A stretch of DNA of 64,000 nucleotides from Glaciihabitans sp. INWT7 (lineage in GTDB: Bacteria > Actinomycetota > Actinomycetes > Actinomycetales > Microbacteriaceae): positions 2,732,419 through 2,796,418 of the forward strand of contig NZ_CP043653.1 of the NCBI RefSeq assembly GCF_014217685.1, given 5' to 3'. Below, piece after piece: positions 3,676 to 55,674 of the stretch; positions within the stretch are counted from its first letter, which is position 1; every line of letters starts with the position of its first letter. The notes below the pieces were generated by a model, which was not told where the DNA came from, searched no databases, and saw only the letters and a list, made by a program, of their open reading frames with translations. The translations under genes and the position numbers were made by a program.

Positions 3676-3759
3676 CCTCAGTGCATCTACCTCAGTGCAT
3701 CTACCTCAGTGCATCTACCTCAGTGCATCTACCTCAGTGCATCTACCTCAGTGCATCTA
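3676..3759. repeat. Six perfect copies of a 14-bp tandem repeat
   Basis: Unit CCTCAGTGCATCTA repeated six times without a mismatch from 3676 to 3759. It occupies almost the whole gap between two convergent gene ends (DUF4349 at 3660, ABC permease at 3772). Its perfect identity points to recent expansion by slippage. Confidence 0.97.
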
Positions 3760-50607: not shown

Positions 50608-52260
50608 ATGCACGAGAAACTCACGCGATGGTGGAGCGGCGTCTCCCTCCGCACCAAGATCACTGGCGTGACCGTGCTTCTGGTGACCCTCGGACTGCTC
50701 GTCGCCGGCGTCGGCACGATGACGGTGCTGCGCACCTACCTGCTCGCGGATGCCGACGCGAAGATGACGAAATACGCCCAGGCCGTGCCCGGGTACACCA
50801 AGACCGGCGCGAAGACCTGCGACGCGTTGCCCGGGATCAACGACTACTACCTCGCCGTGCTCGACACCAACGGCGACGAGCTGTGCAATAACGGTGCGCT
50901 CACACATTCGGCACCGAACGTGCCATCGATGCCATTCAACACCGTGATCAAGACGGGTGGTGTGCCCTTCACCGTCTGGGACAAAGAGCACGACGACCAG
51001 TGGCGCATCGTGGCGGTTCCGCGCAACATCGTCGACTCCGCGGACTACGTCACCGTCGTTGTCGCTGTCGACCTCGTGAGTTCCGACAAACTGATCAACC
51101 AGTTCCTCGTGATCTTCCTCGGCTTCGGGCTCGCGGTGATCGTGCTCGGAGCCGCTCTCACCCGCCTGCTCGTGACATCCACCTTCACGCCGCTGCGCGA
51201 GGTCGAGGCCACCGCCGCGGCGATCGCCGACGGGGACTTCAGTCAGCGGCTGCAGGGCGCCACGCCGAACACCGAGGTGGGGCGGCTCAATCGTTCGCTC
51301 AACACCATGCTCAACCGCATCGACCGGGCCTTCTCCGACCGTGCGCGCACCATCGACCAGATGCGCCGATTCGTCGGGGATGCCAGCCACGAGCTGCGCA
51401 CTCCGCTCGTCTCGGTGCGCGGCTATGCCGAGCTCTATCGCATGGGCGCACTGCAGAAGCCCGAAGACGTGGCCCAGGCGATGGAACGCATCGAGAAGGA
51501 GGCGATCCGCATGGGCGAGCTCGTCTCCGACCTGCTGGAACTCGCCCGCATCGACGAGGCGAAGCCGCTGCAACTCGGCGCCGTCGACCTCGTGCCCATC
51601 GCCCATGATGCCGCCCTCGACGCGATGGCCTCCGCGCCGAAGCGCACTGTCAGTGTGATCGTCGCCGAGGCCCTACCCTCGACGACGGATGCCCCCTCCG
51701 TGCCGGTCTCTCCGGCACCTCCCACCGGCGCTCCGGCCGCGACCGGCCCGATCCGCTTCGCCGGGGCGCAGCTCGCCCGCCTCCGCCGGCGCCAGGCGCG
51801 CGGTGAGCTCACGACGATGCCGATCGAGATCGTCGCGCCCGTCGTGGACGCCGTGGAGCAACCCGCCGTCGTGCTCGCCGAAGAGAACAAGATCCGTCAG
51901 GTGGTCACGAACCTGATGGGCAACGCGATGCGCTTCACTCCGGATGACTCGCCGCTCGAGATCGTCGTGTCTGTCGACTCCGCCCGCGGGGTCGGCGTGC
52001 TCGAGGTGGTGGATCACGGGGAGGGCATCCCGCCGCAGATCCGCGAGAAGATCTTCCAGCGGTTCTGGCGGGCCGACTCGTCGCGCACCCGCGAGACCGG
52101 TGGAAGCGGACTGGGACTCGCGATCGTCTCCGGCATCATCGCCTCCCACAAGGGAGAGGTGACCGTACGGGAGACTCCCGGCGGGGGCGCCACGTTCCGG
52201 GTGAGCCTCCCGCTCCTCCCCGAGGGCTACACTCCCGCCGTCGCCCCCAAGCGCGACTGA
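50608..52260 (+). CDS. Two-component sensor histidine kinase (550 aa)
   Basis: Membrane kinase for the upstream regulator. TM1 (about 20-42), an extracytoplasmic loop with two Cys (about 43-165, KTCDALPG and DELCNNGA, possibly disulfide-linked), TM2 (about 168-190), HAMP (about 190-245), HisKA with phosphoacceptor H261 in DASHELRTPLVSVRGYAE, and HATPase with NLMGNAMRF, DHGEGIPP and GGSGLGLAIV. A Pro/Ala-rich insert (about 358-400) separates the HisKA and HATPase parts, which is unusual. The signal is unknown. Confidence 0.94.
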   Translation: MHEKLTRWWSGVSLRTKITGVTVLLVTLGLLVAGVGTMTVLRTYLLADADAKMTKYAQAVPGYTKTGAKTCDALPGINDYYLAVLDTNGDELCNNGALTHSAPNVPSMPFNTVIKTGGVPFTVWDKEHDDQWRIVAVPRNIVDSADYVTVVVAVDLVSSDKLINQFLVIFLGFGLAVIVLGAALTRLLVTSTFTPLREVEATAAAIADGDFSQRLQGATPNTEVGRLNRSLNTMLNRIDRAFSDRARTIDQMRRFVGDASHELRTPLVSVRGYAELYRMGALQKPEDVAQAMERIEKEAIRMGELVSDLLELARIDEAKPLQLGAVDLVPIAHDAALDAMASAPKRTVSVIVAEALPSTTDAPSVPVSPAPPTGAPAATGPIRFAGAQLARLRRRQARGELTTMPIEIVAPVVDAVEQPAVVLAEENKIRQVVTNLMGNAMRFTPDDSPLEIVVSVDSARGVGVLEVVDHGEGIPPQIREKIFQRFWRADSSRTRETGGSGLGLAIVSGIIASHKGEVTVRETPGGGATFRVSLPLLPEGYTPAVAPKRD

Positions 52261-52347
52261 GTCAGGGTCGCACCGCGCGACCGGAGCTTATTGTCGGGGA
52301 ACGATCCGACCCATCCGGTGCGCGGACGTGAACCAACGGAGGCAGAC

Positions 52348-52638
52348 ATGACGCGCTATCAGGTCGACAGCGAAGCGGTACTCGCGGCGACGACGGCGGC
52401 CAAAGGCACCATCGGTCGAATTCAGGGCGAGGTCGGCGCCCTTCACGGCCAGCTCACGAGCCTGCAGGCATCCTGGTCGGGACCCGCGGCCACTGCGTTT
52501 CAGGGTGCGGTGACCGAGTGGAAGGGCCTCGAACAGCGTGTCGAGGAGGTGCTCGCGGCCATGGGTACGGCTCTCGGCCATGCGGGCCAGCAGTATGCCG
52601 AAATCGAGGCCGCGAACACCCGGTTGTTCGCCCACTGA
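52348..52638 (+). CDS. Orphan WXG100 (ESAT-6-like) protein (96 aa)
   Basis: Helical hairpin protein with WSG (W-x-G) at about residue 48-50 in LQASWSGPAATAFQGAVTEW, and heptad-like flanks. Family members are small substrates of type VII secretion. No EccC/EsxAB secretion gene or toxin partner is nearby, so it is an orphan. ATG 52348 has SD CGGAGG. Downstream is a 1.3-kb block of tandem repeats without genes. It may be secreted by a machine encoded elsewhere. Confidence 0.9.
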   Translation: MTRYQVDSEAVLAATTAAKGTIGRIQGEVGALHGQLTSLQASWSGPAATAFQGAVTEWKGLEQRVEEVLAAMGTALGHAGQQYAEIEAANTRLFAH

Positions 52639-52726
52639 GTGGTTGCCGGGGCCGGCTCGGGGGGAGCGGCGCCGCTGGGCTGGGTTGCCATTCTGATCGT
52701 GCTGGCGCGGGTGCGGCGGCGAACTG

Positions 52727-52797
52727 CCCGTGCTGGCCGCACTGCCCGTGCTGGCGGGGGTGCCGTGCTGGCGGGGGTGCCCGTGCTGGCGGGGGTG
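52727..52797. repeat. 18-bp tandem repeat, four copies
   Basis: Unit CCCGTGCTGGCGGGGGTG at 52745 and 52780 exact, with a 17-bp variant at 52763 and a diverged copy at 52727. It lies between the WXG100 gene and the long array. Confidence 0.85.
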
Positions 52798-52810
52798 CGT
52801 CGGCGCCGGT

Positions 52811-53703
52811 CGGCCAAGCGTTACGAACCGCTGGCCACCGTGCCCGGACGGGCCGTTGCTGACGGTCCAGCCGGCGGATGACGACCCTTGGCGAACACCA
52901 CCCCCGCGCCCGGCCGCGAACCCTCGCAAACCGCTGGCCACCACCCCGAAGGAGCTGTTGCTGACGGTACGTCCGCCGGATGCCACCCCTGGCGAACACC
53001 CCGCCCCTCGCATGGCCGCCAACCGTCACAAACGGCTGGCTACCCGCCCCCGAACGAGCTGTTGCTGACGGTACGTCCGCCGGATGCCACCCCTGGCGAG
53101 CACCCCGCCCCTCGGTCATTGCCGCCAACCGTCACAAACCGGCGGCCACCGCCCCCGAAAGAGCCGTTACTGACAGACTGACACCGGCAACCTGCCCGAC
53201 CCCAGGGTCAGCGAGAAGGTCACCGCGCCATCCGCCACAAACCGCTGTCCACTGCCGCCCAGAGAGCTTTTACTGACGGACCGGCCGACGGGTGCCCTCT
53301 CCTTGCGAGCACCCTGCCCCTCGCATGGCCGCCAACCGTCACTAACGGCTGGCCACCGCCCCCGAAAGAGTTGTTACTGACGGATCGGCCGACGGGTGCA
53401 CTCCCCTGCCGGGCACCAGCCCCGGGCATGGCCGCCAACCGTCACAAACGGCTGGCCACCCGCCCCCGAAAGAGCCGGTACTGACGGACTTACGCCGGCA
53501 ACCTGCCCGACCCCAAGGTCAGCGAGAAGGTCACCGCGCCATCCGTCCCAAACGCCCGGCATGAGCGCCCGTCGGAACGATCCCTGACAGTTCAGTAGGC
53601 ACAAGGGGACCCCTTCACTGCGCAGCCCCATCCCCGCGGGTGAGCCGCGAATCGTCGCAAACTGTCCCGGAGATCGGCCGGGCGAGCAGTTTCTGACGGA
53701 TCG
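52811..53703. repeat. Array of about nine diverged ~104-bp units, each with an inverted repeat
   Basis: Each unit has a left core near CCGTCACAAACGG and a right core near CTGTTGCTGACGG, about 20 bp apart and mutually complementary, so each can fold into a hairpin. Left cores start near 52818, 52920, 53022, 53128, 53230, 53336, 53439, 53542 and 53648. Both cores are also mini-palindromes CCGT-N5-ACGG in the best copies. Units 4 and 7 share an extra block (GGTCAGCGAGAAGGTCACCG). No coding signal on either strand. Confidence 0.85.
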
Positions 53704-53761
53704 CCTGGGTGACCTGGACGACCTGGCGCCGTGGCGACCTGGGCGACGTGGAGCCCTACGG

Positions 53762-53915
53762 CACACGGCACACGGCACACGGCACACGACGCACGACACA
53801 CGACACACGACACACGACACACGACACACGACACACGACACACGACACACGACACACGGCACACGGCACACGACGCACGACGCAGGGCACACGACGCACG
53901 ACGCAGGGCACACGA
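53762..53915. repeat. 22 heptamer repeats (CACACGA and variants)
   Basis: Twenty-two 7-bp units in perfect register, mostly CACACGA or CACACGG with CGCACGA and CGCAGGG variants at both ends, from 53762 to 53915. The array abuts the groEL terminator hairpin with no gap. Confidence 0.97.
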
Positions 53916-53949
53916 CAGCAGGGCGCCTCCCGAAGGAGACGCCCTGCTG
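53916..53949 (-). terminator. groEL terminator
   Basis: CAGCAGGGCG / CGCCCTGCTG stem extended by CTCC-TTCG-GGAG on the minus strand, a very stable UUCG-capped hairpin 26 bp past the groEL stop. No clear T tract follows; the heptamer repeat starts immediately. Confidence 0.85.
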
Positions 53950-53975
53950 TGTGGTTCTTGCCGTGCTGGCGAGAC

Positions 53976-55674
<1,699 letters not shown>

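Follow-up and report, generated by a model that had tools for sequence, protein, structure and literature searches.

Diverged palindromic elements in Glaciihabitans sp. INWT7 and a nuclease gene family flanked by matching palindromes

The array and its dispersed copies

The window, the whole 64,000-bp stretch of DNA analyzed here (G000:C1:2732419-2796418), belongs to the 3.33-Mb chromosome of Glaciihabitans sp. INWT7, whose genome also includes a second contig of 149 kb. An array of nine inverted-repeat elements was confirmed in the window between a WXG100-type gene and groEL (Table 1); these gene names, like purL, SDR, dapD, and gltA, were read from translations and are not database search results. 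Each element consists of two inverted 13-nt arms approximately 35 nt apart, within a unit of approximately 104 bp. The original prediction had placed nine units of about this length at positions 52811 to 53703, and this was borne out by the nine elements located and by TRF, which returned a 104-bp period with 6.5 copies and 75% matches. Unit starts are 102 to 109 bp apart, and the two arms start 35 nt apart in six units, 36 nt in two, and 34 nt in one; when the arm spacing was allowed to vary freely from 30 to 41, the best arm pairs were those at 34 to 36. Between 8 and 12 of the 13 arm positions are paired in eight of the units, while unit 8 is badly decayed, with 5 of 13 paired (G-T counted). 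The spacers, of 55 to 61 nt, are mutually similar because blocks of units were duplicated, as is evident from 94-nt copies that lie 311 bp apart and are 93% alike. CRISPR arrays have unique spacers and near-identical repeats; here the spacers resemble one another and the repeats diverge, in agreement with the earlier view that the array is not a CRISPR.

Table 1. Features of the array locus (window coordinates) and PWM elements around the nuclease gene (positions in locus L104)
Feature	Position	Strand	Arm spacing	Arm positions paired	PWM score (bits)	Remark
WXG100-type gene	52348-52638	+				3' end faces array
Array of nine inverted-repeat elements	52818-53699					Between 3' ends of WXG100-type gene and groEL
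Element 1	52818-52865	-	35	9/13	32.0	In PWM training
Element 2	52921-52967	-	34	9/13		Invisible to fixed-spacing PWM
Element 3	53023-53071	-	36	11/13		Invisible to fixed-spacing PWM
Element 4	53129-53176	-	35	9/13	39.8	In PWM training
Element 5	53232-53279	-	35	8/13	42.5	In PWM training
Element 6	53336-53383	-	35	12/13	49.2	In PWM training
Element 7	53439-53487	-	36	10/13		Invisible to fixed-spacing PWM
Element 8, decayed	53543-53590	-	35	5/13	24.4	Outside PWM training
Element 9	53652-53699	-	35	12/13	49.7	In PWM training
groEL	53976-55604	-				3' end faces array
Six PWM elements in L104	1187, 1332, 2425, 2519, 2612, 2705					None in PWM training

The array is absent from the gap between the WXG100-type gene and groEL in all nine relatives that have both neighbors (two of the nine gaps are identical; in another three genomes of the genus the WXG100 gene had no match). 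This gap spans 92 to 311 bp in the nine relatives versus 1,337 bp in the window genome; thus, the array is special to the window species at this locus. Other tandem repeats were also identified in the window. Repeats of 17, 18, and 35 bp (CCGTGCTGGCGGGGGTG) lie at 52725 to 52798, just upstream of the array and within the same extra stretch, and 22.9 copies of the 7-bp repeat ACGACAC occupy 53758 to 53917, between the array and the groEL terminator; the latter tract was not seen by eye in the short gaps of the relatives. Further away are a 26-bp repeat (5.3 copies) at 2311 to 2447 and a perfect 14-bp repeat (six copies) at 3676 to 3759.

The element is present at more than a dozen places of the window chromosome. 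Using a paired-arm pattern with at most two mismatches, 43 matches were found in the window genome, compared to none for the reversed pattern. From 18 chromosome stretches around motif matches 64 candidate elements were obtained. Those kept were the 51 in which the spacing is exactly 35 and no more than five positions mismatch; they come from 13 places, three of which have a single element. The remaining 13, with another spacing or more than five mismatches, were dropped before the conservation test and construction of the PWM. Across the 51 elements, both arms conserve the outer CCGTCA, AA at positions 8 and 9, and G at position 12, while positions 6, 7, and 10 are variable in both; arm conservation is inflated, as the elements were picked by arm matches, but columns outside the search pattern (-4, -2, 13, 15, 34, and 49 to 51) are conserved too. 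The outer CCGTC/GACGG is better conserved than the inner stem. On the second contig (L027, G000:C2, 3718-4387), four copies of a stretch containing CGGTCACAAACCG occur 219 bp apart; these are identical over the 80 nt compared and look unrelated to the array element.

The same architecture was identified in Lacisediminihabitans profunda (20 places), Herbiconiux solani (29 places), Herbiconiux gentiana (14 places at two mismatches), Frigoribacterium faeni (6 places), and Agreia sp. Leaf283 (3 places). The original prediction had proposed a search of relatives for the same cores, taking their absence as a sign of simple decay, and their presence in these four genera removes that objection. A match with one mismatch was found in 15 of 398 genomes of the family, including the window genome; among eight other genomes of the genus, one has 20 such matches, one has a single match, and six have none. 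Many single matches with two mismatches in other genera appeared by eye to be coincidences within coding sequences and were left out of use. When 40 stretches of other genomes were scanned at lengths of 44 to 53, 57 of 87 matches were 48 nt and no other length exceeded 7, a result that is partly by construction since most of these stretches were chosen with a fixed-length pattern. In the same 40 stretches, the CCGTC/GACGG ends gave 89 raw matches versus a mean of 14.2 for 19 sets of permuted ends. Flanking bases lengthen the palindrome to approximately 60, and the Herbiconiux copies are near-perfect palindromes with G+C-rich inner stems. Of 60 element clusters, a few of which may be chance matches, 31 were convergent, 21 tandem, and 1 divergent with respect to genes called by a home-made gene finder, with 5 inside predicted genes and 2 undetermined; all neighboring gene pairs in the same stretches comprised 61 convergent, 186 tandem, and 47 divergent.

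Pairing was then compared with base identity as the property conserved in the arms. Within the array, an arm pairs with its own partner at 9.44 of 13 positions on average and with partners swapped between units at 9.39, so the covariation that the original prediction had proposed to look for is lacking there. Neither was it found across the 51 elements, where Watson-Crick pairing at symmetric positions differed little from that obtained with shuffled partners (z between -1.7 and 2.1), the limit of five mismatches restricting the variation among the elements tested. Four other genomes (18, 12, 11, and 6 elements) gave no clear within-genome excess of pairing, with weak positive trends in H. gentiana and F. 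faeni. In a pool of 57 elements from ten genomes other than that of the window, a strong excess was found, because the two arms of an element share one arm sequence that is peculiar to the lineage; this would suit a protein whose form varies from lineage to lineage and which recognizes each arm as duplex DNA. Within the window genome, the arms are conserved by base identity and not by pairing. Since they do not covary there, an arm looks more like a half-site to which a protein binds than like one side of an RNA hairpin. No Rfam match was obtained for positions 52200 to 54000 at E values up to 5, and the suggestion that the hairpin itself is selected thus finds no support in the window genome as far as an RNA hairpin is concerned.

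A nuclease gene flanked by matching palindromes

At three loci, two elements approximately 1.1 kb apart bracket one gene or its remains, in each case of the same protein family; at L085, the two elements of a fourth pair lie 1.9 kb apart and have two unrelated genes between them. In the window genome the gene is located at G000:C1:3164973-3165881, outside the window and 380 kb from the array. The PWM built from the 51 elements of 13 other places identified six elements around this gene (locus L104) with scores of 26.1 to 44.4 bits, two of them upstream and four downstream at 93- to 94-bp steps. The background maximum was 12.4 bits over 197,724 positions, and one stray window position (6417) reached 15.7. 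The window element is therefore the palindrome of this nuclease gene. A plain palindrome score misses these flanks (L208 and L261), as the palindromes are decayed, and only the PWM finds them. A second nuclease gene of the window genome (C1:1160837-1161724) has its own type of palindrome, the arm of which occurs 17 times, as seven inverted pairs and three lone matches with three mismatches (reversed pattern, none); two pairs flank the gene and five lie elsewhere, all 38 nt apart.

Homologs of the nuclease were found in 12 of 12 genomes searched, 12 of the 13 of the genus, and in 74 of 148 genomes of the class (E value of 1e-30); among the matches listed, 567 relatives occur among 595 stretches. 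The nuclease genes of the window genome and L. profunda share a neighbor, which suggests vertical inheritance, and a relative (G012) encodes a nuclease that is 60% identical and has a related palindrome on both sides. In L. profunda the counterpart of the window-genome nuclease gene (L078/L123, G007:C23:36230-37179) is split over two frames and apparently broken, yet 20 elements remain in this genome.

To determine how regularly palindromes accompany the family, flanks were scored across loci. With a score of at least 11 within 500 bp, 12 of 19 loci of the genus had palindromes on both sides, 4 on one side, and 3 on neither, the last including the CCGTC-type gene of the window genome. From a set of 80 loci, 3 near contig ends were dropped and 3 more of the remaining 77 lacked enough flank, leaving 74 for counts on both sides. 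A score of at least 12 within 400 bp was reached by the left flank in 73% of 77 loci and by the right flank in 70% of 74, compared to 7% of 1,023 control windows. Palindromes were present on both sides of 42 of the 74 nuclease genes but only 6 of 206 other genes, and a left-right similarity of at least 0.6 was additionally found for 36 of 74 versus 1 of 206; 32 of the 74 have no clear palindrome on one or both sides. As 23% of 129 other intergenic gaps of at least 120 bp also reach the score, a single palindrome proves little, and it is the matching pairs that are rare. Similarity between a left and a right palindrome is 0.76 when both flank one gene versus 0.42 when they belong to different genes, and for 38 of 48 genes the best match is its own left-right partner. 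The more identical two proteins are, the more similar are their palindromes (rho = 0.32, n = 47, with none of 2,000 permutations as high), a correlation that can partly reflect shared ancestry. In a class-wide sample, at least one side scored in 26 of 30 loci and both in 14 of 30, compared to 5% of 58 control windows. This recurrence of the gene with matching palindromes in many actinobacteria, both within Microbacteriaceae and among other Actinomycetia, points to an unrecognized selfish or mobile DNA.

Joint turnover of both palindromes was apparent at one fixed position, the gap between dapD and gltA in Herbiconiux, where 11 of 14 scored genomes carry the nuclease gene (two of the 16 loci, L240 and L252, could not be scored). 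In all nine genomes in which both palindromes can be read, the two ends agree on visual comparison, and between species they range from CCGTC-type variants to quite different sequences. H. gentiana and a close relative, G418, whose dapD genes are 97% alike, differ by a whole gene-palindrome unit. Three genomes lack the gene; G418 has the only clean empty site, and the other two have other DNA. With one clean empty site and the gene present in 11 of 14 genomes, insertion and loss are equally good explanations. Two palindromes approximately 1.1 kb apart that change in step at a single locus offer a natural experiment on the evolution of DNA-binding specificity. At the site of another H. gentiana element (L090), compared in L291 and L292, G443 keeps the element with changes on both arms, and G418 has a different long palindrome (GCTGAGTCGCGCCGAA...).

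The AlphaFold2 model of the nuclease protein has a pLDDT of 94.4. Using Foldseek, the full model matched the homing endonuclease I-Bth0305I (3r3p) with a probability of 1.00, a TM score over the target of 0.71 to 0.76, and a weak E value of 0.029, pointing to an EDxHD/Vsr-type nuclease fold; the matches ranked above it were mitoribosomal proteins of Toxoplasma gondii with low TM scores. The N-terminal 192 residues modeled alone (pLDDT of 93.2) matched the two-domain fold of AbiEi from Streptococcus agalactiae (6y8q; E value of 2.8e-5, probability of 1.00, TM score of 0.51) and that of Rv2827c (1zel; E value of 4.5e-3). Against this, no AbiEi family was among the Pfam matches of 60 members at E values up to 0.1, which included MTES_1575 in 55 and DUF559 in 45. 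Residues E200, D233, H250, and D253 are invariant in the family and probably form the EDxHD motif. The family alignment (A2) comprises 60 of the 75 loci that passed the filter, and 20 of the 80 loci are outside it. The protein is thus predicted to be an AbiEi-antitoxin-like fold fused to a DUF559/Vsr-type, homing-endonuclease-like EDxHD nuclease. AbiEi proteins are described as binding pairs of 23-bp inverted repeats that are separated by 3 or 13 bp and span 49 or 59 bp altogether (PMC7319586), and I-Bth0305I as forming a dimer on a target almost 60 bp long (PMC3943268). A palindrome of 48 to 60 bp is what a fusion of the two should read, judging from fold and size, with the agreement in half-site length being purely numerical.

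Proposed origin and spread of the elements

The array is probably a locally amplified cluster of a dispersed palindromic element that serves as the cognate site of a nuclease whose gene lies elsewhere, in an organization resembling that of REPIN/RAYT systems but with an unrelated enzyme. Association and covariation of gene and palindrome are observations; we infer binding, cutting, and mobility, which could proceed as follows. Two nuclease protomers would bind the two inverted half-sites (approximately 20 to 23 bp each) of the 48- to 60-bp palindrome and cut in or near its poorly conserved center. If both flanking palindromes were cut, the gene could be released with half a palindrome at each end, and these ends might be joined into another palindrome that had been cut. 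Solitary palindromes would then represent empty or nonautonomous sites, and repair of cuts could expand them into tandem arrays such as that in the window. The enzyme may move palindromes, may move itself, or may act solely to police its target. With arms kept by base identity and not by pairing, the element would function at the DNA level, through double-stranded half-sites, and not as an RNA hairpin.

Much of the same evidence could be accommodated if the palindrome were only an AbiEi-like autoregulatory operator and 3' terminator, its other copies being binding sites or the outcome of fortuitous spread, with nothing mobile. The AbiEi fold predicted for the N terminus fits such a role, AbiEi proteins being described as autorepressors that act on their promoters via pairs of 23-bp inverted repeats (PMC7319586), as does the location of most element clusters at gene ends. 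Yet operators belong upstream, and palindromes are about as frequent on the 3' flank (52 of 74 nuclease genes) as on the 5' flank (53 of 74); hardly any dispersed copies lie between divergent genes, and the fused nuclease, the nine-copy arrays, and the empty locus in relatives are left unexplained, making this account unlikely. We regard it as very unlikely that the array is transcribed with each unit forming an RNA stem, whether a terminator, an mRNA stabilizer, or a processed RNA. The 3'-end location, the near-perfect Herbiconiux palindromes with their G+C-rich inner stems, and the joint change of both arms between genomes are what such stems would lead one to expect, but covariation is lacking within the window genome, the outer ends are conserved better than the inner stem, and Rfam gave no match.

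MatP and Noc are chromosome-organizing proteins, and clusters of a conserved bipartite site dispersed around the chromosome recall the sites of such proteins. The patchy distribution among genomes of the family, a cognate gene that is a fused nuclease, and palindromes that turn over between species make a role of this kind, which the original prediction had included among its possibilities, highly improbable. Of the other roles it named, protein-binding or recombination-type sites fit best, as the element flanks the gene of a DNA-binding nuclease, and RNA repeats are disfavored by the absence of covariation within the window genome. Simple decaying tandem repeats without function or cognate enzyme would explain why the units are diverged, why segmental duplication is visible, and why the arms do not covary; such an origin is hardly credible given that copies of the element also flank a nuclease gene at a distance of 380 kb and that conservation is position specific in 51 elements from 13 places, also outside the search pattern.

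Cognate sites of the nuclease thus being the preferred explanation of the array, a broader proposal can be made, on which we are evenly divided: that the array is one spread of an undescribed selfish system, widespread in Actinomycetia, in which an AbiEi-fold/EDxHD nuclease gene specific for its own 48- to 60-bp palindrome is bracketed by two copies of it and moves or spreads by cutting palindromes, solo and tandem copies being nonautonomous and palindrome and protein turning over together even at one fixed locus. Among the papers listed by searches of open-access text, none ties these nucleases to flanking palindromes in its title or the beginning of its abstract, and an earlier description may exist. 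A common and unexplained type of protein thereby gains a candidate for its DNA target, often legible in the flanks of its gene, so that many protein-target pairs become testable.

Comparison with known systems

Homing genes normally interrupt their own target, whereas the nuclease gene lies between two complete palindromes, one on each side wherever both are readable, with further copies elsewhere. Shared with the EDxHD homing endonuclease I-Bth0305I are the predicted fold of the nuclease domain and a very long target, which I-Bth0305I is reported to bind as a dimer (PMC3943268). With AbiEi antitoxins and Rv2827c the protein shares the predicted fold of its N-terminal 192 residues, and the paired inverted repeats that AbiEi recognizes (PMC7319586) are comparable to those found here; unlike in these proteins, a nuclease domain follows, and palindromes occur on both sides of the gene as well as dispersed.

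CGTC-tagged REPs, listed in Proteobacteria, Chlorobi, Bacteroidetes, Spirochaetes, and Thermotogae, have stems of 8 to 9 bp, loops of 4 to 5 nt, and an unpaired CGTC at one end, and their authors report finding no dedicated transposase (Di Nocera et al. 2013, PMC3733652). The window element shares with them the CGTC motif at its ends and the location at gene ends. However, its CCGTC faces GACGG across 48 bp, and other genes of the nuclease family use palindromes without CGTC. The element lacks the short stem-loop structure described for this class, and membership was rejected.

The closest parallel in organization is with REPIN/RAYT systems, in which REP doublets accompany a REP-associated tyrosine transposase (PMC3116915). 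As described there, both have a short palindrome with two conserved inverted ends at a fixed distance, dispersed extragenic copies, tandem clusters, and a gene with adjoining copies, here the nuclease gene flanked by the same palindrome; coevolution of gene and palindrome is proposed for both. The element measures 48 to 60 bp, while the ends of GI REPINs start 71 bp apart (PMC3116915). The Y1 transposase family PF01797 was absent from five of six genomes (Glaciihabitans sp. INWT7, L. profunda, H. solani, F. faeni, and Agreia sp. Leaf283), and its only member among the six is in H. gentiana (L301, G023:C11:24558-24878). With no Y1 transposase in the window genome and a nuclease as the flanked gene, membership in the REPIN/RAYT class was rejected. 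The enzyme is a Y1 transposase in that class and a predicted AbiEi-fold protein with an EDxHD/Vsr-type nuclease here and, if the proposed system is real, an unrelated class of enzyme joins the REP/REPIN world.
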